Source of the DNA: Harmothoe impar
Lineage: Eukaryota; Annelida; Polychaeta; Phyllodocida; Polynoidae
NCBI GenBank assembly: GCA_947462335.1
Contig: OX381707.1
Span: forward strand, 83,910,610-83,974,609
Reading direction: 5' to 3'
Length of the DNA: 64,000 bases
Shown: positions 12,525 to 33,370 of the stretch, piece by piece
How the letters are laid out: each line of letters begins with the position of its first letter
Position numbering within the stretch: position 1 is the stretch's first letter
Translations under genes and position numbers: made by a program
The notes under the pieces: model-generated
What the model saw: the letters and a program-made list of their open reading frames with translations, nothing else
Told to the model about the DNA's origin: nothing
Databases searched by the model: none

Positions 12525-12586
12525 TGCAGGAACACAGTGGTGGCCCTCACAGAGTGAACCAGGTGTGAAATGTGGATCTATTCACC

Positions 12587-13136: not shown

Positions 13137-13234
13137 CACCATGAGAACAGCCTCCACATACAGAGAAGTGGAGGGCAGTGGGATGTAGAAGAGAAACTGG
13201 GGTTATGGTGAGTTAGAAATTCGAGGAGATTTGA

Positions 13235-13381
13235 GAGAGGTGGCGAAAGAGACAGACAGAGACAGATACACTGGAGGGCACACAGACAGGGAGAACGAGA
13301 GAGACAGAGGCAGGGACAGAAACAGATAGATATACAGATGGAGAGAGAGGGAGGAAGAGAGAGGGACAGACAGACAGACAT

Positions 13382-13460
<79 letters not shown>

Positions 13461-13470
13461 AAGAGAGAGG

Positions 13471-13542
<72 letters not shown>

Positions 13543-13680
13543 AGAGACAGAGACAGAGACAGAGACAGAGACAGAGACAGACAGAGCAAACGAGAAACAG
13601 TGAGACAGACAGGGATACAAAGACAGAGACAGACAGTAATACAGAGATACACAAGGCAGAATGACGGGCGGGGCACTATG
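13235..13680. repeat. (GA)n / (GAGACA)n tract
   Basis: Long purine tract with pure GA runs around 13388-13540 and GACAGA hexamers on each side. The minus-strand Leu/Ser-only frames here are artefacts. Confidence 0.92.
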
Positions 13681-14342
13681 TGTGAGAGACAGAGAACAGA
13701 GAGGAATAAAGATATTCAGGATATTACATACTATGGAAATATCCTCTGACTAGCAGACAGAGAACAGAGAAGAATAGAGAGATACAGGATATTATAGCTA
13801 TCTGAATGAATTCAATACTATTAGAATATCCTCTGACAAGCAGCTCATTATAATACATCCATCATCATCAAACTGCCATACGGTGACCCTGCATCTACAT
13901 GTACCGCCATCTGGGTGAGGTCAGGTACCACTCTCCCAGCACAGGCTCAAATAAGACTCTGCCAAAAGGCCCAGACTCTAGGAACTCTTCTGTGGAAAAA
14001 GGGGTGGAAACAGTACTACCTGTCTGCTTTTCTATCCGCATAACACACAACAGAATCCCTACATAGAAAATAGTTCCCAGGGATATGGCCAATTTCCCCC
14101 ATAAAAACATGACCATTAGTTCTATAGTTTTAAAGAATTGTTGTCCACACCCTCCTTGGGATAATTGAATCGAATCATGGTTGTAAAAATGCATATTTCA
14201 AAAGCATGACGTGGTGATCCGCCGCGTTTTGACAGAGAAGGAAGAAGTGCCAGTAGGACCAGATGAATGACTCTGTTGGGATATTGGTCATGTACATCTG
14301 GTCCCCGTCATGTGAGACATTGAACATGTAAACACGCGCACA
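13681..14342. other. Gene-free stretch
   Basis: Contains a short duplicated segment (AGACAGAGAACAGAGA with ATAGAGATA, near 13688 and 13758). The minus-strand 99-codon frame at 13895-14194 has no recognisable features. Confidence 0.4.
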
Positions 14343-18030: not shown

Positions 18031-18319
18031 GGTTAAGTACAGGACTCACCCTGGTGTGTGTAGGTACTAGAGGTATTAGAGCTAGTATAGTTAAATTGGG
18101 ACTATGCCTCTCCTCCATCTCATGTAATATCCAAACTATCACTTTGTATGACAGAGGTCCTGTATACCTGTATAATGATATCCCAGATGATGGTGCTGTA
18201 TATCAGTATGAGACCCAGCCTGGTGTGTAGGGGGGGGGGTGTAGGACCTACATGTATTAGTGGTAGTGTATCTATCCCTCCAATTCCCAGAGAACACATC
18301 TCAGACATTGTAGACAAAC

Positions 18320-18325
18320 CATGAC
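18320..18325. repeat. Polinton target-site duplication, left
   Basis: CATGAC directly before the first AG of the left TIR; repeated exactly at 28837-28842. Confidence 0.9.
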
Positions 18326-18717
18326 AGTAGTATAGTATGTATCGGAACGGGACTATAGTTAAGTACTGTTTATTACTCAATCGACATGCAGCCAATCAGA
18401 GGCCTCCATTTGGTCACGTGACCCGTTGCCATGGTAACGTGACCTACTTAGGGCTCTCAGCCAATCAGAAGCCAGCATTCTGGGTGACCTACTGACCTAC
18501 TTAGAAGCTCTCAGCCAATCAGAGGCCGGCATTCTGGTAACCATGGTAACGTGACCTACTTACGTCACGTGACCTACTTAGGCTCAGCCAATCAGAAGCC
18601 GGCATTCTGGTAACTAGGGTAACGTGACCTACTTAGGGTTTGTTTGTAAACAACACCACGTGGCTTTCTTGTTTGTAAACAACACCACGTGACACGTGAC
18701 TGTTTGTAAACAAACAA
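18326..18717 (+). repeat. Polinton left terminal inverted repeat
   Basis: Starts AGTAGTATAGTATGTATCGG. Contains four CCAATCAG boxes, five CACGTG E-boxes, three RFX-like palindromes (18425-18438, 18537-18550, 18610-18623), three GTAAACA forkhead-like sites (near 18645, 18675, 18705) and repeated GTGACCTACTTA. Confidence 0.93.
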
Positions 18718-18785
18718 ACAAAAAAAAGTTATGTAACTTATATATAGAAATAAAAACACAACAAGATAATTTCTTTTCTTTTCAT

Positions 18786-18798
18786 TTTATTCTTTATT
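18786..18798 (-). promoter_or_regulatory. Tandem AATAAA polyadenylation signals
   Basis: Two AATAAA hexamers on the minus strand (18786-18791 and 18793-18798), just downstream of the last minus-strand frame, in T/A-rich DNA. They probably end the late transcript of the capsid block. Confidence 0.6.
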
Positions 18799-18830
18799 TT
18801 TTCATTTTCAATCAGAAAAAACACACAAGT

Positions 18831-19130
18831 TTATGCTTTTTTAGCTCGCTTCTTCGATTTGCAGCAACTCAACAGGCCGCAAAGTCTCACGTCGCCGTCA
18901 CTCGCACCACCACACCCCGGACGACTTTTCTCCAATAGACATTGCACGACTTTGGATAAATCCAACACCATTTCGGCAAGGCAGAGAATCTTTGCCTCCA
19001 TGAAACGGCCGCCATCGCAACAACCCGTCACAACAGCATCATCGATAGCTTCTGACTCACGACCCGGTCGCTCAGCTTTGGGATTTTGCTCATGCGCATG
19101 ACGCACTTCTTGGGGTTTCTTGTTCGACAT
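18831..19130 (-). CDS. Small Cys-rich Polinton ORF (unknown)
   Basis: A 99-codon frame whose 5' part overlaps the 3' end of the protease gene in another frame. A second ATG at 18999-19001 would give a 56-residue product that starts after the protease stop: MEAKILCLAEMVLDLSKVVQ, then a Cys-rich middle and a basic tail with CGLLSCCKSKKRAKKA. It is the last gene before the AATAAA signals and the left TIR. I do not recognise the family. A small hydrophobic or basic virion protein is possible but unproven. The shorter start looks more likely. Confidence 0.45.
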   Translation of the reverse strand: MSNKKPQEVRHAHEQNPKAERPGRESEAIDDAVVTGCCDGGRFMEAKILCLAEMVLDLSKVVQCLLEKSRPGCGGASDGDVRLCGLLSCCKSKKRAKKA

Positions 19131-19480
19131 GCTTCAATTAGGAAATGAACGCAATGAGGTCCACAGGTGTCAGCAGAAGTGTCTTGTAGTTGAATGCGGT
19201 TTCTTTGCCACTTGAACGGAGCAGAGCGTTCCACGAAAGACAAGAACTCCGCACTCAGCGGCGGTAAGCCGAAGGAATCAAAGTAGTACACTTCACCCGT
19301 GCTCGACACGTAAAACGCCACCCAATGCTGACCTGGTAAATGTTGCGGATCTGTGTTGCTCACGAAACAAGTGTCTTTGATAGGGTGCTTCGGAATAGTG
19401 TCACAAGAGAAAACGCCTAGGAAACGATGTTTTGTGTGAACGTTTTCCTTCAACACTCTGCTTATTTCAAGCGTGTTCAT
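19028..19480 (-). CDS. Adenain-like cysteine protease (maturation protease)
   Basis: The 150-residue product starts at MNTLEISRVL. The open frame extends 63 codons further upstream into the capsid gene, but the Polinton protease family normally starts at MNT, and this start leaves a clean 29-nt gap after the capsid stop. The catalytic set of the adenovirus/Ulp1-type fold is present: His52 in QHWVAFY, Asp68 in FDSFG, Gln99 and Cys106 in DTCGPHC. The Gln-to-Cys spacing of 7 matches adenain. It is expected to cleave virion precursor proteins during particle maturation. It is downstream of MCP on the same strand, as in a late transcription unit. Intact, no missing key residue. Confidence 0.9.
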   Translation of the reverse strand: MNTLEISRVLKENVHTKHRFLGVFSCDTIPKHPIKDTCFVSNTDPQHLPGQHWVAFYVSSTGEVYYFDSFGLPPLSAEFLSFVERSAPFKWQRNRIQLQDTSADTCGPHCVHFLIEACRTRNPKKCVMRMSKIPKLSDRVVSQKLSMMLL

Positions 19481-19509
19481 ACGATACGCCAAGTACCGCC
19501 GTCTTGTCT

Positions 19510-20814
19510 TCAGTTCATGTGGTAGTCGGTGACGGGGTGTCGATCTCGGGTCAGCTCGACGACGTTGTCGTACACCAAGTAGAGTAGCACCGTTGTTGTC
19601 GCTTGTAGCGCCGAGCGGAAACTGACTTCCACCCTCAGCTGACCCGCTCTTATAAGGTTCACGCGACACCCGTCGTGCGATCTGTCTGGGGTTAAGTCGA
19701 GGGGGAACACCGTGTAACCGTTCAGGAATTGTTCGTATGAAATACCGCAGGAGCGCGCGCCCTCGTACATCCCCGTTTCCGTGTGTAGCGCCAAGTACTC
19801 TCTCACGGCCGCTTTGGTCTTAAAGTCGGGCACGTAGGCGTCGTTCGGCACTTTCTGATCGTTCACTATCACTTGAAGCGAGCTGATGTCGTAATGCTTC
19901 ATCTCAAACGGGTTCTTGGTGTAGCTACCGTTGAAGGCGTCGTGGTCAAGGAAGCAAATCATCATCGACTTGGGAAGCTGGCCTGTGTTGGAGTGCGTGT
20001 AGCTGTGATCTCTGTTACCTTGAGGGATGGCGTAGGTCGTCACCTCCACTCTGTTCACCGGGTAGTCGAAGGGCCCGTGTTCTATCACCGCTCTCTCGTG
20101 CGTTTCCGCTACAGCGTCCGCCACCAGCACGCGTCGCACGTAGAGCTTTGCTTTGTAGATCTTCAAGCTGTAGCCTCCGTCAGCGGCGCACATCAGATAG
20201 AAAGAGGGCGCCGCTTGTTTCAGAGTGAGATTGATTTCTGTCTCTCCAACGATGAGCTTCGGTTGATGAGCCAGGTCAAAGTGCAGTCGCGCCATCAGCG
20301 AAAAGCGCTTGTTGGAGATTAGCTTCTTGCGCGCTTTGTACCCCGCATTCGCGTCAGTCAACGTGTCAAACTGACCGGGCGTATCTTCATGCCACCCCTG
20401 GGCGCTCATGACGCCGTCCTTCACGTCTTTGTTGTAGTTGAGTAACCCTTCCAAGTAAGCTCGGTAAGGGTAGGTCTCGGTGTTGCCAGACACTTTGAAA
20501 CCGCCGATGGAGACTTGGACGTCTTTGAAGAGCGAGTGAGCCAAGTTGTTCACCGGAGCTACCGCGTCGGTGTCCTCGATCGCCGCTCCGTCCTTTAGCA
20601 CTTGACATTCCAGATGAAGGTAATTCTCGTTCAGGTCTGTGTACTCTTGCGACTTGTTGATGGTGAAATTTATGTTACCTCCATCCTCTAAAGAGTTTTT
20701 TGTTTCTATCCCCAGGAAAGACGACTTTAAGATAGTAGTCTGAGTCGGCGCTATGGTGTGCAGGTCGAGCTCAGAGAGCGCGCACTCGTTACTGCTCTCG
20801 TGTACGTAAGCCAT
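19510..20814 (-). CDS. Major capsid protein (double jelly-roll, Polinton MCP)
   Basis: A 434-residue protein of the family often annotated in animal genomes as F54H12.2-like, which is the Polinton/adintovirus hexon. Recognisable are the N-terminal SSFLGIETKNSLEDGGNINF segment, a VNNLAHSLFKDVQVSIGG motif typical of the first jelly roll, YPYRAYLEGLLNY after it, and a C-terminal VEVSFRSALQATTTVLLYLV strand. Length is normal for the family. The ATG at 20812-20814 follows a TATAAATA box about 55 nt upstream on the minus strand, so it may have its own late promoter. It would form the hexon-like capsomers of an icosahedral particle. No frameshift or internal stop. Confidence 0.9.
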   Translation of the reverse strand: MAYVHESSNECALSELDLHTIAPTQTTILKSSFLGIETKNSLEDGGNINFTINKSQEYTDLNENYLHLECQVLKDGAAIEDTDAVAPVNNLAHSLFKDVQVSIGGFKVSGNTETYPYRAYLEGLLNYNKDVKDGVMSAQGWHEDTPGQFDTLTDANAGYKARKKLISNKRFSLMARLHFDLAHQPKLIVGETEINLTLKQAAPSFYLMCAADGGYSLKIYKAKLYVRRVLVADAVAETHERAVIEHGPFDYPVNRVEVTTYAIPQGNRDHSYTHSNTGQLPKSMMICFLDHDAFNGSYTKNPFEMKHYDISSLQVIVNDQKVPNDAYVPDFKTKAAVREYLALHTETGMYEGARSCGISYEQFLNGYTVFPLDLTPDRSHDGCRVNLIRAGQLRVEVSFRSALQATTTVLLYLVYDNVVELTRDRHPVTDYHMN

Positions 20815-20868
20815 TGTGTTCTCTCTTCATGCGACCGACAGACTGACGCCGGCCCCCTCCAGTCTTTT

Positions 20869-20876
20869 TATTTATA
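20869..20876 (-). promoter_or_regulatory. TATA box of the MCP gene
   Basis: TATAAATA on the minus strand, followed by AAAAGAC and a GC-rich leader up to the MCP ATG at 20814, in the only gap of that size within the capsid block. Confidence 0.5.
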
Positions 20877-20893
20877 CCTGAACGCCTAGGCGC

Positions 20894-21319
20894 TTACCGG
20901 TCGAATACATCCCCTCTACGTCTCTTGCAAGAGCCACCGCCCGTCTGAGGAGAATGCCGGCGACGTTTCGACCCTTTCTTAGACGCGACAGGCGTCTTTC
21001 CTCCCGAGAACGCCGTACTCGCCAGTCTCTTCAGAGCGCCTGCGCCTCGGTCTTTCACGCTGCTCTTTAAAGTCCGACCCGCCAGCACATCTTTAGCTAC
21101 GCCCACACCGGCGCGGAGCAGCGTTTTTCCCACCGACTTCAATAGCGGGGTAGCCGAGCGCATCAGACCTAACAGAGCGCCGCCTAAACCGTGCCCGCTC
21201 TGGAAAGAGCGCCCGCTGTACACGTTGACGCCGTTGCCCAGCTGCGCGTTGTAGTAATCGCTGTACCCTCTGCCGACGGTGCGCCTGGGTGGAAAGTACG
21301 GAACGCGTTGACGCATCAT
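20894..21319 (-). CDS. Basic core-like virion protein (pX/PC2-like)
   Basis: A 141-residue protein. The N terminus is rich in Arg, Tyr and Gly (MMRQRVPYFPPRRTVGRGYS). An amphipathic stretch GGALLGLMRSATPLLKSVGK sits at residues 46-65. The C terminus is strongly basic (KKGSKRRRH, SCKRRRGDVF). This layout resembles the small DNA-binding or membrane-active core proteins that Polintons and adintoviruses encode between the penton and the hexon genes. ATG is 11 nt after the penton stop. Assignment rests on position, composition and the hydrophobic-then-basic pattern, not on a catalytic motif. Confidence 0.65.
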   Translation of the reverse strand: MMRQRVPYFPPRRTVGRGYSDYYNAQLGNGVNVYSGRSFQSGHGLGGALLGLMRSATPLLKSVGKTLLRAGVGVAKDVLAGRTLKSSVKDRGAGALKRLASTAFSGGKTPVASKKGSKRRRHSPQTGGGSCKRRRGDVFDR

Positions 21320-21330
21320 TTTTCTCTCTT

Positions 21331-22449
21331 TCAGCGCTCAATAGGTCTCAGATGAAGTGTCACGGTCACCTCGCCTCTACCGAATGGGATGGAATGACCG
21401 GATCGGTCTCTTAAATAGATGCCGACCTCGGTAAACCTCTTGGATTTCAAGGGGAAATAATCCAAATGGGGAAAACTGATAGCTTGCACGCCACCTCGAC
21501 GCTTTCCGCCTCTGTCCACCGCCACGCAGCGCAACAGCGGCACTTGCATGTCGCCCACACGTCTCTCCTGGATCATGTCGGTGTATATGTACACAGAGTG
21601 CACGTCCCCGTAAACATCCATCGAGTAGGCGCCGGTAGTCGGCGACGCGAAACACGTCTTCTCTCCGAAGCCTAGAACGCATGCGAGATGCTGACTCAGC
21701 AGGACAGCACAGTGTCTCGGCGGTTTGATGGTGACGCGTTTCGTCTTGGCGTCGTACGATAAGATCCGCATCGGTTTGAGCAAGAAGCTGTCGCCCTCTA
21801 GTCTGTCATCTCGCAACGTCTCACTCAAGCGCTCGATTAGGGTGTGGTTGCTTCCGGTGAAAATAGGAGGTATCTCGAATATGTTTGGCATGAAACTGCG
21901 CACTCCCATGTCCTTCTCCATCTTTTCGATCATCTGTCTTGCTTGATGGCTGATCGTCTTCTTCTTCACCGCCGGGGACAAGAACTGCTTGTATACGGCA
22001 TTCGTCTGTCTCAAGTCGACCTCTCTCTTGAACCTTTTTGTTTCCGGTTTCAATTGCTGCTCTTCCGACGTGTCTGATATCTCTTCCACCGTTACATAGC
22101 TCGCTTCCTTCCAGTTCAGCGGGAATTTTGAGCTGAACGTTAGCTTGCTCAGACCGTTCGCGTTTTTCATTCTCTTCCAGTCTACCTGTGGTTTTTTTCC
22201 TTCGGAGAAATTAGTTTCTTTTAAAACCTGGATCGCCTCCTCTAGCGAACCTTTGGTGCGCAGAGGAACAACGATGATCAAGTCGTCGTCGTGCACGTTA
22301 GTCCATTCTGTAGGGAGGATGATCTCAGTCAGAGCCGCTTCGTACGCTTCGGGCAGAAGGAGCGGCGAGTCGAAGTGAGTTCGGAAAGACGTCAAGCTGT
22401 TGTCAGGATAATACTCCATAGAGCTGTTGCTAGGTAGAGTGATGTTCAT
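21331..22449 (-). CDS. Minor capsid / penton-like protein (Polinton PX)
   Basis: A 372-residue product starting MNITLPSNSSMEYYPDNSLT, with SFRTHFDSPLLLPEAYEAAL and EIILPTEW after it. This N-terminal signature is typical of the Polinton penton-like minor capsid protein. The C-terminal third (SYDAKTKRVTIKPPRHCAVL onward, ending GRGEVTVTLHLRPIER) reads as beta strands, consistent with a single jelly roll. It lies between integrase (4-nt gap upstream) and the core-like protein, in the usual capsid module. The ATG sits after an A-rich leader (ACAAAATG). Expected at the five-fold vertices of the particle. No disruption. Confidence 0.82.
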   Translation of the reverse strand: MNITLPSNSSMEYYPDNSLTSFRTHFDSPLLLPEAYEAALTEIILPTEWTNVHDDDLIIVVPLRTKGSLEEAIQVLKETNFSEGKKPQVDWKRMKNANGLSKLTFSSKFPLNWKEASYVTVEEISDTSEEQQLKPETKRFKREVDLRQTNAVYKQFLSPAVKKKTISHQARQMIEKMEKDMGVRSFMPNIFEIPPIFTGSNHTLIERLSETLRDDRLEGDSFLLKPMRILSYDAKTKRVTIKPPRHCAVLLSQHLACVLGFGEKTCFASPTTGAYSMDVYGDVHSVYIYTDMIQERRVGDMQVPLLRCVAVDRGGKRRGGVQAISFPHLDYFPLKSKRFTEVGIYLRDRSGHSIPFGRGEVTVTLHLRPIER

Positions 22450-22453
22450 TTTG

Positions 22454-23590
22454 TTACGTTATTTTTTTGACGGGGATCCACTCGTTGAACTTGTCGTCGT
22501 AACCTAACCAACGTACGAAAGCTAACTCTTTACCGTCGACGGTCTTGCGGCGCAACACCTCGTCTATCAGGTAGTTCTTGTCGTAACGACTCTTGTACAC
22601 CTTCTGAACCTCTTCCGGGTAGAAGACGCCTTTTATCTCCTCGCCCTTGTCGTCTTTCAGCTCGAACCCTCTGCTTCCCAACGTGTTAGCAACGTCCACC
22701 ACTTCCTCGCGCCAGTTTCCCTCGTACCCTTTGTCGAAGGCGCCTTTGGTTCTCAACATCCTCACTCTGTCACCCGGAGCGATGACGTCGACGGCGGACG
22801 TCTTTGTTTTTTTCTTCTTTTTCCATATTTCGTCGATTTGTTTGTTAGTTGGGAGATCTTGTCGGTAGAAAACTGTTTCGCTGTTTTCCGAGCTGACTTG
22901 AGCCGGCGCCATTTTCAACGTCTTGTGGTGAGTGCGATTGTAAGAAGACACTACATGGTGCAGCACGTCTACGTAGCGATACGTGCGCTTGTGTGTGAAA
23001 TAACGCCACAGCTTCTCCTTCAGACTGCGGTTCAAGCGCTCCACTAGACTAGCTTTGATGTCGTCGTTCTCGCCAGTGAAGAACTCTATGCCCTCGCTCT
23101 TCAAGTGATCTTGAAAGATCTTGTTCAAAAACTCTTTCCCCTTGTCTGTCTGAACAGTGCGCGGTCGTCTCTCGCCAGGGCCTGTCATCTCTCGGAAGGC
23201 CTCGGTGACATCAGCGCCGCTCTTGGATTTAATGGGAACGGCCCACGCGTACCTAGAGAAAACGTCGATCGCCGTCACCACGTACCGGAAGCGGTCGTTG
23301 TGAGACGCCAAAGCTTGCATGTCCATCAGATCTATCTGCCACTGCTGATCGATTGCGCCGGTTATAGTCTTGTTCCTTGCGAATTTTCTCCGAATGGGTT
23401 TATGTTTAGTGTAGGCGTCCAGCGACACTAAAGCATCTCGGATGACGGCCGGGTTCAGGTGGCGAAAATGCTGTTTCTGGAGTTTAGTCACGCTAGTGAA
23501 ACTGGAGGGCGCTTTGACGTCGGTATATCTAGCTACTACGCGCTTCTTTTCTTTTTCCTTCTTGGTCAGTCTCTTCACTGGTTTGCCCAT
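22454..23590 (-). CDS. INT: Polinton integrase (retroviral-type, with chromodomain)
   Basis: A 378-residue integrase. The RNase H-like core carries the acidic triad Asp87 (WQIDLMD), Asp149 (QTDKGKEF) and Glu184 (SLVERLNRSLK), with 34 residues between the last two, close to the D,D-35-E pattern. The N terminus is Lys-rich and shows no clear HHCC zinc finger. An SH3-like segment (PGDRVRMLR) follows at about 272. The C terminus is a chromodomain-like fold (YLIDEVLRR...FVRWLGYDD...NEWIPV) with aromatic residues Tyr340, Trp361 and Trp371 that could read histone marks. The start overlaps the 3' end of the 401-aa gene by 16 nt. The enzyme explains the 6-bp duplication at the element's ends. Confidence 0.95.
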   Translation of the reverse strand: MGKPVKRLTKKEKEKKRVVARYTDVKAPSSFTSVTKLQKQHFRHLNPAVIRDALVSLDAYTKHKPIRRKFARNKTITGAIDQQWQIDLMDMQALASHNDRFRYVVTAIDVFSRYAWAVPIKSKSGADVTEAFREMTGPGERRPRTVQTDKGKEFLNKIFQDHLKSEGIEFFTGENDDIKASLVERLNRSLKEKLWRYFTHKRTYRYVDVLHHVVSSYNRTHHKTLKMAPAQVSSENSETVFYRQDLPTNKQIDEIWKKKKKTKTSAVDVIAPGDRVRMLRTKGAFDKGYEGNWREEVVDVANTLGSRGFELKDDKGEEIKGVFYPEEVQKVYKSRYDKNYLIDEVLRRKTVDGKELAFVRWLGYDDKFNEWIPVKKIT

Positions 23591-24780
23591 CGCGGGTCTC
23601 TTGAGGGCGTGAAAGACGAGCTCGCCGCTAGGCGGTTGCGCGCTTTCCTTTTCTTACTACGCGGCGCGCTCCTATAGGAAGTCGGAGTTTGGAAAAGTTC
23701 ACGGTCGTCCTCCTCGTCGTCAGAGGATTGATCGTCCACCACCTGCAGAGAAGAGTCTGCTGCTGCTACTGCTGCTGCTGCTGCTGCTGCTTCTCCTTCT
23801 TCCGATTCAAAGCTCGGTCGTTTCCGACCTCTGTCAGCAAGCCGTGTGTCCAAACTTTGGCCAGGTCCGCTCGCTTTATACAGATGGTTTCCGATCAAGG
23901 CGTCTGTGGTGGGAACCGCTTCGCGCAGCGCTTTCGTGAACGGCGAGTAGCCCGCCGGTCTGGGCGCCGTCTTCCTGAACCTGGCGGCGTCGTTCAGTAA
24001 GTCCACTATGTTGATGCGATGCTCAGGTGGTATTCTCCGACCCGACATCTCGCGCACCGCCCCGTCCTCGTTCCACTTGATCACTCCGGATTTCTCCAAT
24101 TGTTTGTACAGCTCCACGGTCCGGCGGCGACTCCTCTTGGGAACTTGGTTCGCCAACCGCTCGAGTAGGGACGCGCTGGCCTCTTCAGCAGACTGACGGA
24201 GGTGAGCCGGGGGCGAAGAAGAGTAGGACGAAGAGATGTTGCTGTTGTGGGGATTCGCGAGAAAAAATTGCAATCTATTCAACAACCTTCGGTATTTCAA
24301 CATTTTCTCGCGCGATTCCAAAGTGGGGTCGTTCAACACTAAATCCAAGTCCCTGTAGATAAACTGTAGCACCTGGTGCAAGGCCGCGTCGGGATGAAGG
24401 GACTGCTCTGCCTGCTTGTGGTAATAGGCCATGTCGGCGGGTAGGCGGGCGGCGGTGGCAGGAGCGGAACTCTCGTTCTTTTCAGTGCGCTCATCAGGAA
24501 GAGGAGGAAGGTTTGGAGCAGTAGAAGTACTAGCAGCAGCGACTGCAGTAGTAGCAGCGCTAGTAGTAGCAGCAGCAGCGGGCACATGATGAAGTAGACC
24601 TGCTCGTGATGATTTGTAGAGCGTCTCAGGATCCACGAGCGCTAAACGTTTGTAGTGTTGTTGCTGCTCTGAGTCCGTCATGGGGACGCCGGTGGCAATG
24701 ACGCTGGTGGTGGCGGTAGTGGTGGTGGTGGTGGTGGTGGTGGTGCTGTCGGCGAGTAGGTGTCGAATGACGTGTCTCAT
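23575..24780 (-). CDS. Conserved Polinton protein of unknown function (401 aa)
   Basis: The protein has a Thr repeat near the N terminus (codons 12-22) and Ala/Ser-rich linkers, then conserved blocks: a YKRLALVDPETLY segment, LHPDAALHQVLQFIYRDLDL, VIKWNEDGAVREMSGRRIPP and INIVDLLNDAARFRK with YSPFTKALREAVP after it. The pattern (short LVDP motif, helical middle, then NIVDLxND) recurs in Polinton proteins next to integrase and ATPase, which supports a virion or DNA-associated role, but the activity is unknown. Its ATG overlaps the previous gene's stop (ATGA). A second Met at 24679-24681, past the Thr run, may be the true start. Confidence 0.75.
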   Translation of the reverse strand: MRHVIRHLLADSTTTTTTTTTTATTSVIATGVPMTDSEQQQHYKRLALVDPETLYKSSRAGLLHHVPAAAATTSAATTAVAAASTSTAPNLPPLPDERTEKNESSAPATAARLPADMAYYHKQAEQSLHPDAALHQVLQFIYRDLDLVLNDPTLESREKMLKYRRLLNRLQFFLANPHNSNISSSYSSSPPAHLRQSAEEASASLLERLANQVPKRSRRRTVELYKQLEKSGVIKWNEDGAVREMSGRRIPPEHRINIVDLLNDAARFRKTAPRPAGYSPFTKALREAVPTTDALIGNHLYKASGPGQSLDTRLADRGRKRPSFESEEGEAAAAAAAVAAADSSLQVVDDQSSDDEEDDRELFQTPTSYRSAPRSKKRKARNRLAASSSFTPSRDPRWANQ

Positions 24781-25109
24781 ATACGGAGAATGCTCTTTAT
24801 AAGCGGTAAGGCCATCCCTATGAGAGCCGGAATGAGGAAACCTCCCTCTTGTACCAAGACGCGTCTCTTTTTTTTGATGGGCGTAGATTTTTTGCCGACC
24901 TCCCTCAACACGTCAGCCGATTCTCGAAGCTTGTCCAGTTGTTTGTCGCTGAGCGGGATGTTCCCTACCAGTAAATTGTGACAGATCTCACTCAACGCTG
25001 CGATCAGCTCGTCGCTTCCAGAGTCTATTAGATGCGAGCAGTCCTTTGGCGAGCACTTAGCTAAGTGCTTGAGAGTACCAAAGTGTCTTTCGAGTAGATG
25101 AGAAGACAT
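24777..25109 (-). CDS. Small pVI/PC1-like membrane-active protein
   Basis: A 110-residue protein. The N-terminal part is helical (LLERHFGTLKHLAKCSPKDC), with ALSEICHNLLVGNIPLSDKQ and LDKLRESADVLREV in the middle, then a basic KKSTPIKKKRR and a C-terminal hydrophobic GGFLIPALIGMALPLIKSIL. This order (helices, basic patch, GGFL-type hydrophobic tail) is well known in small Polinton proteins next to the ATPase and likened to adenovirus pVI-type lytic proteins. Eight A residues directly precede its ATG. It starts 9 nt after the ATPase stop and overlaps the next gene by 4 nt. Membrane disruption during entry or assembly is inferred. Confidence 0.75.
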   Translation of the reverse strand: MSSHLLERHFGTLKHLAKCSPKDCSHLIDSGSDELIAALSEICHNLLVGNIPLSDKQLDKLRESADVLREVGKKSTPIKKKRRVLVQEGGFLIPALIGMALPLIKSILRI

Positions 25110-25118
25110 TTTTTTTTG

Positions 25119-25838
25119 CTACTGCTTTCTGTTGTTCTTTTTTTTGTCTAGCGGTACGAACACTAGCTGAGAGTGTATGGCCGTCAAAGAGGAGCGTATT
25201 CTCAGATCGTCAGGTGTTGACTGCTTGAAGTCCAGGAGGAGGTATGAGTGAGGTCGCTTGAGTTCATGGGTAAATATACTAGAGAGGGCCGCCGCGTTGG
25301 ACGGAAACACCTGGCGAGACAGACTAGCTATTTGCCCCATGTCGCGCGGGTTCTTGAAAACGATCATGTAGTGAGCGTTCAGACTCATAGTTCGAAAGTC
25401 GGGTGATTTCTGGAAGAGGTTCTGAGTGATGTATATGACGCTCACGTTCCAGTGATGCGAGTATTTAGTAAAGATGTCGGCTACCACTTGCTGATTGGAA
25501 CTGCTCATCAGATCGTCCAATATCAGTAGAGTGTGGGGTCGTACAGCGTCTTCTGCTACTTCCACGTCTCCCGCTATAGACTCTTTGCTAGGAAGACCTT
25601 CTCTGAATTCCACACCGTACCGATTTGCCATTTTTTCAAACAGAGGTTGCCACTCGCCGTAATGGTAAAAAGTCTTTTCCACCGGCGGCGTGACCAAATT
25701 GTTCACGTCGCTCAGAAATTGATCCACCAAGCGCGATTTTCCACAACCCGACGGACCGCTAATGATACAACTAAAGGGTCCTTGTAGTCGAGCGTCGAAA
25801 TGAATTTCTGTGAAGAGTTTGCTTTTACTACTGGACAT
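25119..25838 (-). CDS. FtsK/HerA-type genome packaging ATPase
   Basis: A 239-residue P-loop ATPase. Walker A is GPSGCGKS at residues 28-35. Walker B is TLLILDDL at 103-110 with the acidic pair 108-109. Gln139 in YITQN is in the place of the sensor residue of the A32-like packaging ATPases. Size is normal for the Polinton/virophage family. It is expected to drive element DNA into the capsid. It opens the tightly packed minus-strand block; its ATG is preceded by eight A residues, the same leader as the next gene. No missing motif. Confidence 0.92.
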   Translation of the reverse strand: MSSSKSKLFTEIHFDARLQGPFSCIISGPSGCGKSRLVDQFLSDVNNLVTPPVEKTFYHYGEWQPLFEKMANRYGVEFREGLPSKESIAGDVEVAEDAVRPHTLLILDDLMSSSNQQVVADIFTKYSHHWNVSVIYITQNLFQKSPDFRTMSLNAHYMIVFKNPRDMGQIASLSRQVFPSNAAALSSIFTHELKRPHSYLLLDFKQSTPDDLRIRSSLTAIHSQLVFVPLDKKKNNRKQ

Positions 25839-26040
25839 TTTTTTTTGTTTTTTTTTCAGGACGCGTCAGAGAGCGGTTGTGTGTCTGACTGTCTGCTGTG
25901 TTTCTCACTCGAACGGTCGGTGGTGAATGGTTGTGGAGAAAAGTCCGCCGACCTTTTTATTGATTCCGGCCGGTGTCACAGTAGCGGCGGCAGAAGTGAC
26001 TTTTTTTTGCGATAAAATTCTATTTTCACTCAATAGTCAT

Positions 26041-26083
26041 AAATGTTTGTATCAGACTCCAGAGGAGTCTGATACAAATATTT
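26041..26083. terminator. Intergenic hairpin, possible transcript-end signal
   Basis: Perfect 15-bp stem TTTGTATCAGACTCC/GGAGTCTGATACAAA with a 3-nt loop, extendable to about 20 bp with one wobble pair, between the 230-aa frame and the ATPase. It stands about 100 nt downstream of the 230-aa stop on the minus strand. Some giant viruses and virophages use such palindromes as 3'-end signals; this role is inferred. Confidence 0.5.
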
Positions 26084-26096
26084 ATTTTTTTTTAAA

Positions 26097-26180
26097 AAAA
26101 GAAGAAGAGGAGGAGGAGGAGGAGGAGGAGGAGGAGGAGGAGGAGGAGATTAGTTTTTTTTTTTTTTTTTTTTTTTTTTG
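26097..26180. repeat. (GAG)n run followed by poly-T
   Basis: About 16 GAG/GAA triplets at 26099-26150, then a run of more than 20 T. Frames through it are low-complexity. Confidence 0.9.
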
Positions 26181-26185
26181 ATCAT

Positions 26186-26878
26186 TTAGGCAAAGCTCGT
26201 CGCTTTGCCGTTTTTTTTTCTATTTCTGTGTTGTGACACGATCGTCTCGAAAAAGCAATAAGGCGTGTGAGCGCGGCGGTGACAAATACATATTGGAGCG
26301 TATGGTTTAAAATAGTGCGTCCCTATCTTCTTCAATTCGGCTGCGTTGCAATATGCGGGATAACAAGTGACGACGTCGAAACGTTTAGAGACCGTGTTCA
26401 CGTCGGCCACAACGCGCGCCCACCGAGTGGGAGCTGCAGTCGCTCCCAAGAAACCGATCGGCTTGTCGAATCGTTTCATAGCACTTATTCTCACTTTATA
26501 AGAGGAGGCAGGGTGAGGAGAGTAGCGGCGCTCTTTCTTTTCATGAAACGCCCAACGAGTGGGGGCGCTGAGAGCAGCTGTTATGCAATAGTAGAGTAAA
26601 TGCTGTTCTGAGAAGACGGCTCTCGGCCATGTCGCTACGTTTTCCTTTTCCGCTCTTGTATAACGACGATGGCGCTCAGCTTTGCATTTCTCGAGAATTC
26701 GGTACGCCTCAAGAGAAGCGTGAACCTCAACTACGTGACGCTCTCTCCTTTGAGATAAAAAAATAGCCGGGCAGTTGAGGAGAGCGCTTTGTTCGCGCGA
26801 CCGTCTTTTAGAAACTCGCGCCCTCTGCAGCGCCATATTTCTTTCCTCCGAAACAAAAAAGCCTGAGTGAAAATACAA
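26186..26878 (-). CDS. Orphan 230-aa Polinton ORF
   Basis: An open frame of 230 codons with no family I recognise. A second Met at codon 15 (26834-26836) gives MALQRARVSKRRSREQSALL as N terminus and may be the true start. The product is basic, with Cys and His near the C terminus (VTCYPAYCN, PICICHRRAHTPYCF) that could bind a metal. The short motif APTRWA occurs twice, about 45 residues apart. Position upstream of the ATPase on the same strand makes it the first minus-strand gene. There is no polymerase, helicase or primase motif. It could be a regulator or replication accessory protein; that is only a guess. Confidence 0.55.
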   Translation of the reverse strand: MYFHSGFFVSEERNMALQRARVSKRRSREQSALLNCPAIFLSQRRERHVVEVHASLEAYRILEKCKAERHRRYTRAEKENVATWPRAVFSEQHLLYYCITAALSAPTRWAFHEKKERRYSPHPASSYKVRISAMKRFDKPIGFLGATAAPTRWARVVADVNTVSKRFDVVTCYPAYCNAAELKKIGTHYFKPYAPICICHRRAHTPYCFFETIVSQHRNRKKNGKATSFA

Positions 26879-27566
26879 ATTTAAGAAAACAAAAAGCTCA
26901 AAGAAAAAAAATAAGCAATAAGCAGACTCAGCTCGAAATTCCCTGCTGGCGTGATGGCGGTGACTGCAGGCGGTGGCGGCGGTCGGCTGGCCGGCGGTGG
27001 CGGTGTCGGCGGCGATGGTAGAAGGGTGTGTGGAAAGAGAGACGCATCTCAGTCTTTTATAGGAGCGGCGAGTCTGACATTTTCAGCTGTCGCATGCTGA
27101 CCTGCTGCTAGCATAAGAGAAACAAAAGCCCTAATCACACTTTTCAGCTGGATCCTTCCACCCCGCCAGACATGGATCCCAGATGGGAAGGCGGTTTAAA
27201 ATTAAATCCGTGTACCGACTGTCATACAATAGGGTAATTAGTTGAACGCGTGTTACCTGTATAAAGGATTAACGGGTCATGGGCTCAGCGTGTGTATAGA
27301 AAAACAACTACAGGTAGCGTGAACAAAGCGACCCCCTCCCTTTCTGTCACTCTGTCTGTGACTAGAGGGTGCGCGTGTGGTAAGCGGCTTATATCTAAAG
27401 AAAAAAACAAATCACCCTCGCCTGTCATCAGCAGACAGCCGGCTGGCGGCTGGAAAATGCGATTAGAGGGATGATGAGCCACGTAGTAAGCGACTTAAGG
27501 CTGATGTAAAGACCTGCCGTGAAGGGGCAGCTGGCCGGTGGCTTGAAAAAAGGCGGGGCGTAAGGG
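26879..27566. other. Polinton region between the divergent genes
   Basis: GGCGGTGGC-type triplet repeats at 26950-27020 and a plus-strand TATAAAGG at 27260-27267. Two mutually overlapping 60-65 codon frames (27285-27482) have no recognisable features. Probably a regulatory zone for both directions. Confidence 0.4.
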
Positions 27567-27574
27567 TATATAAG
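27567..27574 (+). promoter_or_regulatory. TATA box of the Ala-rich gene
   Basis: TATATAAG on the plus strand. A start site about 30 nt downstream would fall after the ATG at 27579, so the next in-frame ATG at 27693 becomes the first codon. Confidence 0.5.
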
Positions 27575-27614
27575 GGGAGTGAAACCACATTCAGCATCGT
27601 CATCATCGTTCACG

Positions 27615-27662
<48 letters not shown>

Positions 27663-27692
27663 GCACCGCGCCTCAATTTGCAGATCCTCGTG

Positions 27693-28328
27693 ATGGAAAG
27701 TTGCTACCGTGACATGAAGCGGAATGACGAAGCGGCGCGCGAATGTGAAGCTGATGCTGTAGCCTCTGCTACTGCTGCTGCTAGTGCTGCTCAGCGTGCT
27801 ACTGCTGCATTTACTGCGGCTGTTAGTGACGCGGGTCGTGATGACGTTGTTGTTGTTGCCGCTGCGGCTGTGACTGCTGCTGTTGCTGCCGCCGATGCAG
27901 CTACTCATGCCACCGATGCCGACGCTGCTGCTGCTGATGCTGTTGCGGCTGCCGATGACGCCGCTGATAACGCTACTAGTGCCCGCTCTGCCGCCCTTGC
28001 TACTGTCGCTGCTGCTGTTGTTGCTAATGCTCACGCTACTGCTGCTGCCGCTGCTGCTACTGCTGCTACCGCTGCTGCCGAGGCTGCTGCCGCTGCTGCC
28101 GATGCTGCTGCCGATGCTGCCGATGCTGCTGCCGATGCTGATGTTAGCAGTCGCGTCGACAAAGAATCGTCATTTGTCACTCTTAAAGCCGCTCCAGTGG
28201 AACGCGCGACGGGTAGTAGGGCTACCAACGCGACGGCCGGATGGTGCAAATGGTGTCGTCGCTTCTGCTCGTGCGCTTGCTTTTCTTCCGGTCCTACCTG
28301 CTGCTGCTACGGTATGATAGTGTTATAG
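27693..28328 (+). CDS. Ala-rich protein with Cys-rich tail (unknown)
   Basis: The only substantial plus-strand gene of the element, 211 codons from this ATG. An upstream in-frame ATG at 27579 exists but lies only a few bases after the TATA box. The start is polar (MESCYRDMKRNDEAARECEA). A long stretch of Ala, Asp and Thr encoded mostly by GCN repeats follows and would be strongly helical. The last 30 residues are Cys-rich (WCKWCRRFCSCACFSS, then CCCYGMIVL). No family recognised. The GCN run also leaves other frames open, so the coding call rests on the promoter, the non-repetitive ends and the position. Confidence 0.45.
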   Translation: MESCYRDMKRNDEAARECEADAVASATAAASAAQRATAAFTAAVSDAGRDDVVVVAAAAVTAAVAAADAATHATDADAAAADAVAAADDAADNATSARSAALATVAAAVVANAHATAAAAAATAATAAAEAAAAAADAAADAADAAADADVSSRVDKESSFVTLKAAPVERATGSRATNATAGWCKWCRRFCSCACFSSGPTCCCYGMIVL

Positions 28329-28444
28329 TGTTTGAATGAGAACGCGCGTAGTTACACATAGACGCTGTTACAGATGTGCTTTTTTATTCGAAAATATAAT
28401 TTTAACATAAGATGGAACTTGTTGTGTTTTTTTCTATATATACG

Positions 28445-28836
28445 TTGTTTGTTTACAAACAGGCACGTGTCACGTGGTGTTGTTTACAAACAAGAGAGCC
28501 ACGTGGTGTTGTTTACAAACAAACCCTAAGTAGGTCACGTTACCCTAGTTACCAGAATGCCGGCTTCTGATTGGCTGAGCCTAAGTAGGTCACGTGACGT
28601 AAGTAGGTCACGTTACCATAGTTACCAGAATGCCAGCCTCTCATTGGCTGAGAGCTTCTAAGTAGGTCAGTAGGTCACCCAGAATGCTGGCTTCTGATTG
28701 GCTGAGAGCCCTAAGTAGGTCACGTTACCATGGCAACGGGTCACGTGACCAAATGGAGGCCTCTGATTGGCTGCATGTCGATTGAGTAATAAACAGTACT
28801 TAACTATAGTCCCGTTCCGATACATACTATACTACT
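28445..28836 (-). repeat. Polinton right terminal inverted repeat
   Basis: Reverse complement of 18326-18717, with about five mismatches by eye, ending ACTATACTACT. One RFX-like and one CCAAT box are altered relative to the left copy. Confidence 0.93.
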
Positions 28837-28842
28837 CATGAC
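28837..28842. repeat. Polinton target-site duplication, right
   Basis: CATGAC, identical to 18320-18325. Joining the flanks gives a unit that aligns with the uninterrupted relative at about 16730-16790 (...AGACACTTTAAACAAACT...AATAGAGAAGTATGG). Confidence 0.9.
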
Positions 28843-30560
28843 GTTAAGAATAGAGAAGTATGGTTCTGTTCTGCTCTACAGACCCTCTATATCATAATCA
28901 TGGTTAAGTTGGGAATGTGCCTCTCCTCCATTCCATGAAGTATCCTAACTATCACTTTGTATGTGAAACTATCATAATGATATCCCAGATGATGGTGCTA
29001 TATATCAGCACAAGACTCACCCAGAGAGAGATGAAATAACATATTCTAGTTATAGTTACCCTGCTATGGGCCTGTGAGGTCCTATTTATCTCTATAATGA
29101 TACCAGATATCCCAGGTAATGACAGTGCTACATATCAGTACCAGACTCACCCTGTTGGAGGTAGGTACTAGAGGTATTAGAGCTAGTATGGTTAAATTGG
29201 GACTGTGCCTCTCCTCCATTTCATGTAGTATCCAAACACTCACAGGTTAATATGTGAATATCTGTATCATGATATCCCAGGTAATGACAATGCTACATAT
29301 CAGTACCAGACTCACCCTGTTGGAGGTAGGTACTACACTGAAAATCCATAGATTGAAAGGGTTAGTCAGTTCAGACTATCCTAGGTTGGTCATATGAGTG
29401 TTAGTCATAATGGCAAAGTTATATTCAAAAATGACTGAGGGGTCAGTCAGTAGTGGCTAACCTAGGTTCATCATTGGTGTGTTGTATTTGTATACCACTA
29501 GTTGGGGCCACCTGTTATGACACTCGGTGGCTCCCCCTGGAAATAAAAAGACTAAGGTGGGTTGGTCAGTTCTGACCAACCTGACAATAATAACTGACCT
29601 ATGTTGGGCGTATAGGGATCCAAAAAATGACTAACTAGGTTAGGCACTAGTGACTGAGAGGTTGGGCGTATAGGGAGCCTAGGAATATCAGTGTAGAGGT
29701 ACTAGAGGTAGTATAGTTAAATTGGGAATGTGCCTCTCCTCCATTTCATGAAGTATCCTAACTATCACTTTGTATGACAGAGGTCCTGTATACCTCTATA
29801 TGATATCCCAGATGATGGTGCTACATATCAGTATAGTACAAGACTCACCCTGGTGGAGGTAGGTACTAGAGGTATTAGAGCTAGTATGGTTACATTGGGA
29901 CTGTGCCTCTCCTCCATTTCATGTAGTATCCAAACACTCACAGGTTAATATGAGGAAGGACCAATATATCTGTATCATGATATCCCAGGTAATGACAGTG
30001 TTACATATCAGTACAAGACTCACCAAGAGAAAGATGAAACAACATATTCTAGTTATAGTTACCCTGCTATGGGCCTGTGAGGCCCTATTTATCTCTATAA
30101 TGATACCCCAGATATCCCAGGTAATGAGAGTGTTATATATCAGTACCAGACTCACCCTGGTGTGTGTCGGACCTAGAGGTATTAGAGGTAGTATGGCTAA
30201 ATTGGGACTGTGCCTCTCCTCCATTTCATGTAATATCCAAACTATCACAGGTTAATATGAGGAAGGACCAATTTATCTGTATAATGATGTCCCAGGTAAT
30301 GACAGTGTTACATATCAGTATGAGACTCACCCTGGTGGATGTAGGTACTAGAGGTATTAGAGCTAGTATGGTTAAATTGGGACTGTGCCTCTCCTCCATT
30401 CCATGATGTATCCTAACTATCACTTTGTATGAGAAAGGTCCTGTATACCTGTATAATGATATCCCAGGTAATGACAGTGTTATATATCAGTACAAGACTC
30501 ACCCTGTTTTGTGCAGGTACTAGGGGTACTAGAGGTAGTGTGATGCTGTAGGCTCTGTAG
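28843..30560. repeat. Right half of the ~190-bp repeat block
   Basis: Repeated units with CTCCTCCATTTCATGTAGTA, AGGAAGGACCAATATATCTG and CCCAGGTAATGACAGTG, as left of the Polinton. The 100-codon frames at 29919-30255 are repeats, not genes. Confidence 0.75.
29336..29693. mobile_element. MITE with CACTG ends (TA) inside the repeat block
   Basis: Ends CACTGAAAATCCATAG and GAATATCAGTG, TA duplicated at 29334-29335 and 29694-29695. Removing it restores the GGTAGGTACTAGAGG of neighbouring units. A diverged partial copy lies near 38790-38943. Confidence 0.75.
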
Positions 30561-31159
30561 GTGTGGCCGCCGGTAGTGGTAGTCCGTGAGTGAGACTGAG
30601 AGTGGGGATCCTACCAGGCAGTCCTGTATATACAGCCCAGCCCCCACACAGGATGTAGGTATAGGGATGTCACCTGACAGCCGCAGCGCCACCCTACTGC
30701 AGCGGCACTGGGAGGAACTACAGTGTGGGGGCTGCCATGCAGGGAGGGAGGGAGGGAGGGAGGAATGGGGTGGGGGGGGGAGGACTGCTACCGCCTGCCA
30801 GTACTAGACAAAAAGACCAAGTGAAAAACAAAGGGCCACGTAAACATATAACTGGAGCAGATCAAGGATTTAGAAAGAGCTGGGTTCCACGACTAGTTCC
30901 ACCAAGTACAAACTATGTATTTTGATATGGACATTCAAACTACTTCAAATATAATGTAGGCTAAGGAATAAAGTGGCGGCTGGGGGACAAGATGGCGGCT
31001 AGCGGACAATATGATGCATGGGGAACAAAATGGTTGCTAGGGGAACAAAATGCATATATGGTGGTTGCGGACAAGACGATATATGGGGAACAAGATGGCG
31101 GTTGTGGGACAACATGCCAGTTGGCAGACAAAATGGCTGATAGGGGACAAAATGGGGAA
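30561..31159. other. Gene-free; start of the satellite
   Basis: A GGGA microsatellite at 30739-30765. From about 30970, diverged ACAAGATGGCGGCT-type motifs lead into the 70-bp satellite. Confidence 0.5.
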
Positions 31160-33370
31160 TGCGCTACAACAGAATACATGTCTGAGGGACTGGGGGCCAG
31201 GAGACAAGATGGCCGCCTGCACGGGGGACACACTACAACAGTATACCTGTCTGCTGGGACCTGGGGCCAAGAAACAAGATGGGCGCCTACACGGGGGATG
31301 CACTACAACAGTATACGTGTCTGCTGGGAACGGGGGCCAAGAGACAAGATGGCCGCCTGCACTTTGGGATGCGCTACAACAGTATACATGTCTACAGGGA
31401 CTGGGGGCCAAGAGACAAGATGGCCGCCTACATGGGGGGAGGCGCTACAACAGTATACATGTCTACAGGGACAGGGGCCAAGAGACAAGATGGCCGCCTG
31501 CACTTTGGGATGCGCTACAACAGTATACATGTCTACAGGGACTGGGGGCCAAGAGACAAGATGGCCGCCTACATGGGGGGAGGCGCTACAACAGTATACA
31601 TGTCTACAGGGACAGGGGCCAAGAGACAAGATGGCCACCTACATGGGGGGATGCGCTACAACAGTATACATGTCTACAGGGACTGGGGGCCAAGAGACAA
31701 GATGGCCGCCTACATGGGGGGATGCGCTACAACAGTATACATGTCTACAGGGACTGGGAGCCAAGAGACAAGATGGCTGCCTACACGGGGGATGCGCTAC
31801 AACAGTATACATGTCTACAGGGACTGGGAGCCAAGAGACAAGATGGCTGCCTACACGGGGGATGCGCTACAAAAGTATACATGTCTACAGGGACTGGGGG
31901 CCAAGAGACAAGATGGCCGCCTGCACGGGGGATGCGCTACAACAGTATACGTGTCTACAGGGACTGGGGGCCAAGAGACAAGATGGCCGCCTACACACGG
32001 GGGATGTGCTACAACAGTATACATGTCTAGAGGGACTGGGGGCCAAGAGACAAGATGGCCGCCTACACAGGGGGATGCGCTACAACAGTATACGTGTCTA
32101 CAGGGACCGGGCGCCAAGAGACAAGATGGCCGCTTGCATGGGGGGATGCGCTACAACAGTATACATGTCTACAGAGACTGGGAGCTAAGAGACAAGATGG
32201 CCGCCTACATGGGGGATGCGCTACAACAGTATACATGTCTACAGAGACTGGGAGCTAAGAGACAAGATGGCCGCCTACATGGGGGGATGCGCTACAGCAG
32301 TATACATGTCTGCAGGGACTGGGGGCCAAGAGACAAGATGGCTGCCTACATGGGGGGATGCGCTATAACGGTATACATGTCTACAGAGACTGGGAGCTAA
32401 GAGACAAGATGGCCGCCTACACAGGGGGATACGCTACAACAGTATACATGTCTGCAGGGACTGGGGGCCAAGAGACAAGATGGCCGCCTACACGGGGGAT
32501 GCGCTACAACAGTATACATGTCTACAGGGACTGGGGGCCAAGAGACAAGATGGCCGCCTACACGGGGGATGCGCTACAACAGTATACATGTCTACAGGGA
32601 CTGGGGGCCAAGAGACAAGATGGCCGCCTACACAGGGGGATGCGCTACAAGGGTATACATGTCTACAGGGACTGGGAGCCAAGAGACAAGATGGCCGCCT
32701 ACACAGGGGGATGCGCTACAAGGGTATACATGTCTACAGGGACTGGGGGCCAAGAGACAAGATGGCCGCCTACACGGGGGATGCGCTACAACAGTATACA
32801 TGTCTGCAGGGACCGGGGGCCAAGAGACAAGATGGCCGCCTACACGGGGGATGCGCTACAACAGTATACATGTCTACAGAGACTGGGGGCCAAGAGACAA
32901 GATGGCCCCCTACACAGGGGGATGCGCTACAAGGGTATACATGTCTACAGGGACTGGGGGCCAAGAGACAAGATGGCCGCCTACACGGGGGATGCGCTAC
33001 AACAGTATACATGTCTGCAGGGACCGGGGGCCAAGAGACAAGATGGCCGCCTACACGGGGGATGCGCTACAACAGTATACATGTCTACAGGGACCGGGGG
33101 CCAGGAGACAAGATGGCCGCCTTCACGGGGGATGCGCTACAACAGTATACATGTCTAGAGGGACCGGGGGCCAAGAGACAGGATGGCTGCCTACACGGTG
33201 GGATGCGCTACAACAGTATACATGTCTAGAGGGACCGGGGGCCAAGAGACAGGATGGCTGCCTACACGGTGGGATGCGCTACAACAGTATACATGTCTAG
33301 AGGGACCGGGGGCCAAGAGACAGGATGGCCGCCTACACGGGGGGATGCGCTATAGCAGTATACATGTAGG
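31160..33370. repeat. ~70-bp satellite, about 31 units
   Basis: Each 70-72 bp unit contains ACAACAGTATACATGTCTAC, GGGGCCAAGAGACAAGATGG and CCGCCTACA...GGATGCGCT. Because the unit is not a multiple of 3 and lacks plus-strand stops, all three plus frames stay open for hundreds of codons. The AAGATGGCCGCC core resembles YY1 sites and occurs once per unit. Confidence 0.93.

Follow-up and report, generated by a model that had tools for sequence, protein, structure and literature searches.

The 64,000-nt stretch of contig OX381707.1 of the polychaete Harmothoe impar that was analysed here (the window, to which all positions without a contig or locus name refer) contains an element of 10,511 bp, S1, which is very probably the capsid and integrase segment of a bipartite Polinton/adintovirus-like element, the polymerase segment of which would be a second element of about 9.5 kb, S2. 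This assignment was made by sequence comparison. In the copies read, the genes are divided between the two elements, the termini are common to both, both are counted in large numbers in the host genome, and 6-bp target-site duplications flank the insertions; all of this was observed directly.

Ends and gene complement of S1

S1 has the long terminal inverted repeats (TIRs) and the 6-bp target-site duplication that are a hallmark of Polintons/Mavericks. Its two TIRs are 99% complementary over 392 nt, and the interior of the left one contains the repeated units CAGCCAATCAGA..., GGTAACGTGACCTACTTA and TTGTTTGTAAACAACACCACGTG. Eight open genes, all on the minus strand, make up its gene complement. 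The features are as follows ("resident" denotes PolB-bearing Polintons of the same genome).

18320..18325, left target-site duplication, CATGAC
18326..28836, whole element S1, 10,511 bp
18326..18717, plus strand, left TIR, 392 nt
19028..19480, minus strand, adenain-like protease of 150 aa (counted from the first ATG in frame P0008), PF00770 Peptidase_C5
19510..20814, minus strand, candidate major capsid protein (MCP-like), 434 aa, E 2e-45 to a resident Polinton gene
20894..21319, minus strand, candidate pX-like basic core protein, 141 aa, E 3e-12 to a resident Polinton
21331..22449, minus strand, candidate penton or minor capsid protein, 372 aa, weak similarity (E 1e-6 over 87 aa) to a resident Polinton
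22454..23590, minus strand, RVE integrase with a chromodomain-like C-terminus, 378 aa, PF00665 rve, E 3.2e-13
23575..24780, minus strand, Ala/Ser-rich protein, 401 aa, codon score weak yet best in this frame
24777..25109, minus strand, candidate virion protein, 110 aa, E 3e-9 to a resident Polinton
25119..25838, minus strand, genome-packaging ATPase, 239 aa, P-loop GPSGCGKS, E 2e-36 to a resident Polinton
25839..28444, orphan arm, no replicase recognised in it, with a GCN-repeat tract within 27746-28169
28445..28836, minus strand, right TIR, 392 nt
28837..28842, right target-site duplication, CATGAC

The RVE integrase and the adenain-like protease are two further hallmarks of Polintons/Mavericks. 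The protease match to Peptidase_C5 (E 1.5e-4, 21.9 bits) is just above the cut-off of 21.3, and the protein shares 34% identity with a resident Polinton frame. The chromodomain of the integrase (PF00385, E 0.0013) is below its cut-off; this domain is listed for integrase relatives of 53-55% identity (P0118-P0122) and absent from the listing for relatives of 71-99% (P0110-P0117). The packaging ATPase is placed in the FtsK/HerA type through the ATPase frame of a resident Polinton, with marginal support from Pfam (PF02456 Adeno_IVa2, E 8.4e-5, just above the cut-off; Pox_A32 below it). The proteins named MCP, pX and penton are what we take them to be from the place of their genes and from their similarity to resident Polinton genes; the resident gene that the MCP-like gene resembles was itself named in this way, and no relevant PDB match was found for the MCP-like protein, a candidate for the double jelly-roll MCP of Polintons/Mavericks. 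A ribonuclease fold for this protein was rejected, the PDB profile matches in question being judged spurious, and the predicted structure model of the penton candidate was not usable.

Degenerate direct repeats are present on either flank of S1 (18036-18220 and 28900-29335), and the insertion target seems to have been a local repeat array.

Absence of a polymerase gene from S1

The protein-primed PolB of Polintons/Mavericks was not found in S1: with a profile of 17 PolBs searched against 324 stop-to-stop frames, the best match had an E value of only 4.2. Among the control rows shown, the same profile scored the PolB of S2 with 2,183 bits and a locus of the resident Polinton class A with 114 bits, while the piece of class B did not appear. 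Neither Pfam nor PHROGs recognised a replicase in the frames P0006 and P0007 of the orphan region (25.84-28.4 kb), nor did a Pfam scan of 27651-28169 find one, and an alternative replicase, a trait of polinton-like viruses, was absent from the Pfam and PHROGs matches of the ten S1 proteins scanned. The coding signal of the orphan arm is mostly low; one low-complexity frame scores as gene-like, and the true protease frame is also weak. A hidden polymerase in this arm was rejected on the grounds that profile, Pfam, PHROGs and coding-signal scans all failed to find one, which also answers the suggestion in the preliminary description that a divergent polymerase might occupy the orphan frame. Its claim that the element is complete and Polinton-like in spite of lacking PolB is borne out by the TIRs, the 6-bp duplication, the eight open genes and the result of the profile search.

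S1 as a high-copy family

S1 belongs to a family with many hundreds of copies in the host. The host assembly (1.51 Gb in 736 contigs, one of which is referred to as C1) was searched with short patterns, allowing up to two mismatches. A 30-mer of the MCP-like gene yielded 1,566 matches (779 + 787) and a 33-mer of the ATPase gene yielded 1,547 (770 + 777), whereas the reversed controls yielded 0 in both cases. Of the 99 MCP matches on C1, 92 are accompanied on the expected side by an ATPase match less than 20 kb away, and for 87 of the 99 the distance is 5.2-5.5 kb, the same as in the window element; two of the seven unpaired matches lie past the last ATPase match listed. This common structure across many copies refutes the possibility, left open in the preliminary description, that the lack of PolB is a private deletion of one copy, and the copies sharing the PolB-less structure for which it had proposed to search exist in hundreds, as judged by the genome-wide pattern matches.

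The MCP-like gene is open in all of the 97 copies scored (97 of 2,818 candidates). Among 19 further copies fetched, the mean pairwise difference of this gene is 0.31 in 1,305 nt; since the copies compared had the best scores, the true divergence must be higher. Even with this reservation, the description of S1 as young is upheld.

A polymerase-bearing partner with the same ends

The ends of S1 are far more frequent in the genome than S1 itself. A 33-mer of the S1 end has 13,855 matches (6,924 + 6,931; 0 for the reversed control), versus 3,132 expected from 1,566 two-ended copies, and the surplus includes the partner S2. The terminal 98 nt of S1 are 100% identical to those in the S2 pieces L060 and L064 and 99% identical to those in L061. 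Beyond these 98 nt, S1 and S2 align mainly in short sub-repeats and in a stretch of about 70 nt further in, at 81%. Between the two ends of S2 the identity is 95.7% over about 397 nt, so that either element has a longer TIR pair of its own. Common ends of 98 nt combined with private longer TIRs are, we infer, to be expected of two replicons under the same machinery, and not of fresh deletions of one parent. At about 0.5 kb from the left end of one S1 copy, the terminal 98 nt were observed a second time (99%; L020:2397-2494), perhaps as part of a neighbouring or nested element.

S2 contains an open frame of 1,384 aa with a match to DNA_pol_B_2 (PF03175) above the cut-off and a Vsr-endonuclease-like stretch; the motifs in this frame are ones that we take to be those of a polymerase. 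Its pattern has 2,534 matches in the genome (1,259 + 1,275). The frame is open over 1,384 aa in 31 of the 34 best-scored copies (of 7,589 candidates), the other three having one stop each, and two S2 copies picked by position differ at 22 sites in 4,059 nt. The motif DxLCxFRC is invariant in 17 aligned PolBs and may fit an OTU-like domain; no Pfam OTU match was obtained. S2 also has a Death domain within a frame of 280 aa (L064:2957-3796, E 1.4e-7, above the cut-off); an Ala-rich frame of 553 aa possibly encodes an ssDNA-binding protein, with a PC4-like match at the C-terminus (L064, E 1.3e-4). The Death-domain frame, and a second one in L063:3-740, might possibly serve the control of host cell death.

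Proteins of S1 were not detected in the S2 pieces L061 and L064 (best E 0.27). As the PolB partner has the same ends and no detected S1 protein, S1 and S2 each seem to need the other. The preliminary description had considered a satellite lineage that borrows its replication: the borrowing fits, whereas the term satellite is incomplete, because the partner in turn has no detected S1 protein.

The two elements could cooperate as follows. The PolB of S2 would start replication at the common ends of both S1 and S2, the integrase of S1 would insert both segments at 6-bp targets, and the capsid proteins and ATPase of S1 would package both as linear DNA of 9-10.5 kb. Either element alone would be helpless, S2 contributing replication, S1 the integrase and the particle. 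The pair may have arisen through the splitting of a one-piece Polinton of about 17 kb.

It should be noted that other PolBs are available in the same genome. At least two further families of PolB-bearing Polintons are resident there (for example, L001-L008 and L056-L059), with open PolB frames of about 1,180 aa and about 1,410-1,570 aa. Many open PolB frames of these classes A and B could in principle be used by S1 as a satellite, in which case its likeness to S2 would be incidental; however, the stretches read around one element of each class (the ends of both were not located) have no TIR similarity to S1, while S1 and S2 have 98 near-identical terminal nucleotides in common, so that this explanation is very improbable. 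The resident classes resemble S1 in having homologous integrase, ATPase and MCP-like genes at 24-35% identity, and differ from it in having PolB beside these genes. As the direct parent of S1 they were rejected, on the basis of this low identity and of the lack of TIR likeness in the stretches read.

Census of end pairs

The first 100 end matches listed, all on C1, form 40 end pairs and leave 20 ends unpaired. Ten pairs contain the MCP pattern and are 10.3-10.5 kb long, and ten contain the PolB pattern and are 9.0-9.7 kb long. A search for CATATG followed by the end returned 57 mismatch-free ends, which form 21 pairs with identical duplications and leave 15 single; the pairs comprise 5 of 10,499-10,535 bp, 14 of 9,388-9,613 bp, one of 6,896 bp and one of 18,316 bp (for 2 of the 21, a listed gene pattern also gave the class). 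The paired identical duplications imply that most of these are true insertions, which fall into two narrow ranges of size, short derivatives being few. Counted over 44 of 49 end rows, the target duplications show a weak palindromic preference near CAYRTG; the rows omitted are L011, the repeats L041 and L053, and one further row each of L020 and L054 (the second in both cases).

Seven pairs of MCP and PolB matches lie less than 25 kb apart (74 MCP and 100 PolB positions in the first 91.9 Mb of C1, the scope of all statements on such pairs). In one of them, 3.8 kb apart, the end positions reveal an S2 nested in an S1; at this locus (C1:3023555-3043628) the MCP-ATPase distance is 14,879, and S2 must have been inserted later than S1. 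Three further close pairs are parted by listed ends.

The very high copy number and near-identity of the copies could also be taken as signs of a host segmental duplication or an assembly artefact. This is scarcely credible, since the flanks vary from site to site, end pairs bear the same 6-bp duplication, one S2 is nested inside an S1, and 99% matches occur in database contigs, which may or may not be independent.

Relatives and phylogeny

For the MCP-like protein, 82 homologues were found. The nearest are 72-95% identical and lie on contigs of 1.8-3.8 kb, the next is 44% identical on a 12,657-bp contig, and the others, including those of turtle genomes (34-36%), are at 38% and below. For PolB, 16 homologues were found (8,000 candidates scored), with 99% identity on a contig of 9,882 bp, 76% on 4,271 bp, 65% on 9,859 bp, 49-50% on contigs of 9,603, 17,632 and 16,628 bp, 46% on 12,657 bp, and 42-44% for others, whose contigs range from 7.6 to 17.2 kb except for one of 1.6 Mb; a further, partial match (34%) lies on 3,325 bp. 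The integrase has 347 homologues, among the 120 listed of which one is 99% identical on a contig of 10,510 bp, others are 71-93% identical on contigs of 1.8-4.2 kb, and those of 54-55% include contigs of 16,628, 17,632 and 12,657 bp. Single-sequence queries of IMG/VR returned no relatives of MCP or PolB, and no phage relatives of MCP were found.

The contigs of 16,628, 17,632 and 12,657 bp appear in both the integrase and the PolB matches, and their equal size and source suggest that they carry both genes (three such coincidences observed versus about 0.02 expected in a simple random model); the 12,657-bp contig would also hold an MCP. The sister group of the S2 clade includes all three contigs in the midpoint-rooted PolB tree; the 12,657-bp row of the MCP tree is sister to the S1 clade (100/98), and in the integrase tree the three contigs and two other rows form one group (91/88).

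Weighing of the bipartite organization

Several observations weigh against the assignment of S1 and S2 to one bipartite element. The sequence of S2 was read from two copies only (L060 and L064 from one, L061 from the other), and its PC4 match is below the cut-off. The pattern counts are unequal, with 1,566 for the MCP of S1 versus 2,534 for the PolB of S2. Half of the end pairs in the C1 census (20 of 40) carry neither the MCP nor the PolB pattern, 18 of them being 8.7-9.9 kb long and two 13.2 and 15.9 kb. Around one MCP match at 12.195 Mb of C1 there are three MCP-PolB pairs, 12-22 kb apart, which are possible one-piece copies. With regard to the relatives, the contigs with integrase and PolB were matched by equal size and source only, the MCPs of the 16,628- and 17,632-bp contigs are not among the 82 MCP matches, the junction of the 91/88 group with the S1 clade lacks resolution in the integrase tree, and in the PolB tree the segment-sized contigs do not group together (three changes; 82 of 500 shuffles were as low). 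Lastly, the contigs of 10,510 and 9,882 bp may stem from this same species, as collapsed repeats.

Some of these observations would also be expected if S1 and S2 were internal-deletion derivatives of one autonomous master, which is rare, lost or an outside virus and mobilises both via the common ends. One-piece relatives with integrase and PolB seem to exist on contigs of 12.7-17.6 kb, three other end-sharing elements, read in part, have no intact core gene, and the three pairs near 12.2 Mb are compatible with a one-piece master. However, derivatives of one parent should share the inner TIR, whereas the close agreement between S1 and S2 stops after 98 nt, and either has a TIR pair of its own. 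Apart from the pairs near 12.2 Mb, no one-piece copy with MCP and PolB was recognised among the positions on C1. Furthermore, the 65% identical PolB lies on a contig of only 9,859 bp, so that the small form looks old. A common master is therefore unlikely, and the division into two segments remains much the better explanation.

The end-sharing elements other than S1 and S2 number about 2,800 by subtraction, a figure that would include decayed S1 and S2. Three of them, which carry neither pattern, were read in part (L062, L063, and L065 together with L066); they are mostly non-coding or decayed, have 86-98 terminal nucleotides in common with S1 where an end was read, and contain Ala-rich scraps and tandem repeats, L063 containing in addition PolB fragments and the Death-domain frame mentioned above (E 1.1e-11). 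A third coding segment is not established by these pieces. In L062:3975-5351 a tandem array of units of about 398 bp was observed, which is perhaps filler that keeps the size of the element. The narrow size range of these elements, near 9-10 kb, may reflect a packaging limit. It is conceivable, though rather doubtful, that S1, S2 and the approximately 2,800 end-sharing passengers together represent a multipartite, virion-forming and integrating Polinton, of which only capsid-sized DNA would spread; if this were true, a segmented virus and its passenger segments would have shaped the host genome. Taken together, S1, S2 and the other end-sharing elements would amount to about 4% of the host genome, if all were full length.

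Comparison with known systems

To our knowledge, no bipartite case has been known in the Polinton/adintovirus lineage. In open-licence PubMed Central, represented mostly by titles and the starts of abstracts, neither a segmented or bipartite Polinton nor a Polinton described as missing PolB was found (including PMC12567637, PMC11071308, PMC8363768 and PMC12220804).

In its summed gene set, TIRs, 6-bp duplications, adenain, packaging ATPase and Polinton-type PolB, the pair of S1 and S2 resembles one-piece Polintons, Mavericks and adintoviruses, and the S1 integrase is of the RVE type, as in Polintons and adintoviruses, with an end that may be a chromodomain (match below the cut-off). These, however, are one molecule, as exemplified by Drosophila-associated adintovirus 1, in which a single contig of 14.5 kb carries PolB, integrase, capsid, protease and FtsK genes (PMC8363768), whereas the genes of S1 and S2 are split, in the copies read, over elements of 10.5 and 9.5 kb with common ends, and so depart from the usual adintovirus state. 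Adintoviruses have been defined by a PolB with an N-terminal OTU-like domain (PMC11071296), and an integrase with a chromodomain is a further trait of theirs.

The closest known systems are the bidnavirids, segmented viruses of another capsid type with a polinton-derived polymerase; they are single-stranded DNA viruses, described as parvovirids that gained the polinton pPolB (PMC4061559, PMC11071308, PMC8363768). Like the proposed pair of S1 and S2, Bidnaviridae and Vesanto virus have a PolB of Polinton origin and a genome divided into at least two segments. In contrast to them, S1 and S2 have Polinton-type protease, ATPase, integrase and capsid-like genes, and their segments are integrated double-stranded DNA; neither a parvovirus-type capsid nor an NS1 helicase was among the Pfam matches of the S1 and S2 proteins scanned. 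Meldviruses, which are without recognisable PolB and integrase (PMC11071296, PMC11071308), and polinton-like viruses resemble S1 in having virion genes of the Polinton or adintovirus type and no PolB on the same molecule. Polinton-like viruses, however, are mostly without RVE integrase and encode another replicase, whereas S1 retains the integrase and has no recognised replicase.

If the bipartite organization is true, it would be a stable split of capsid and integrase genes versus polymerase genes over two integrated molecules, the first such case known, and it would show how segmentation arises in a double-stranded DNA transposon-virus, apparent one-piece relatives being available for comparison. 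The old question of whether animal Polintons still form particles would become testable, since the model predicts packaging in trans and a size window, in a genome where very young copies are present.

Other features of the window

Apart from S1, the window contains a long simple-repeat tract with a strong AT skew at 12479-13750 and a minisatellite with a unit of about 71 bp, open in several frames, at 30965-33300. An open frame at 62984-63580 has a DUF3504 match above the cut-off (E 8.8e-10) and perhaps belongs to another mobile element or is a host gene.

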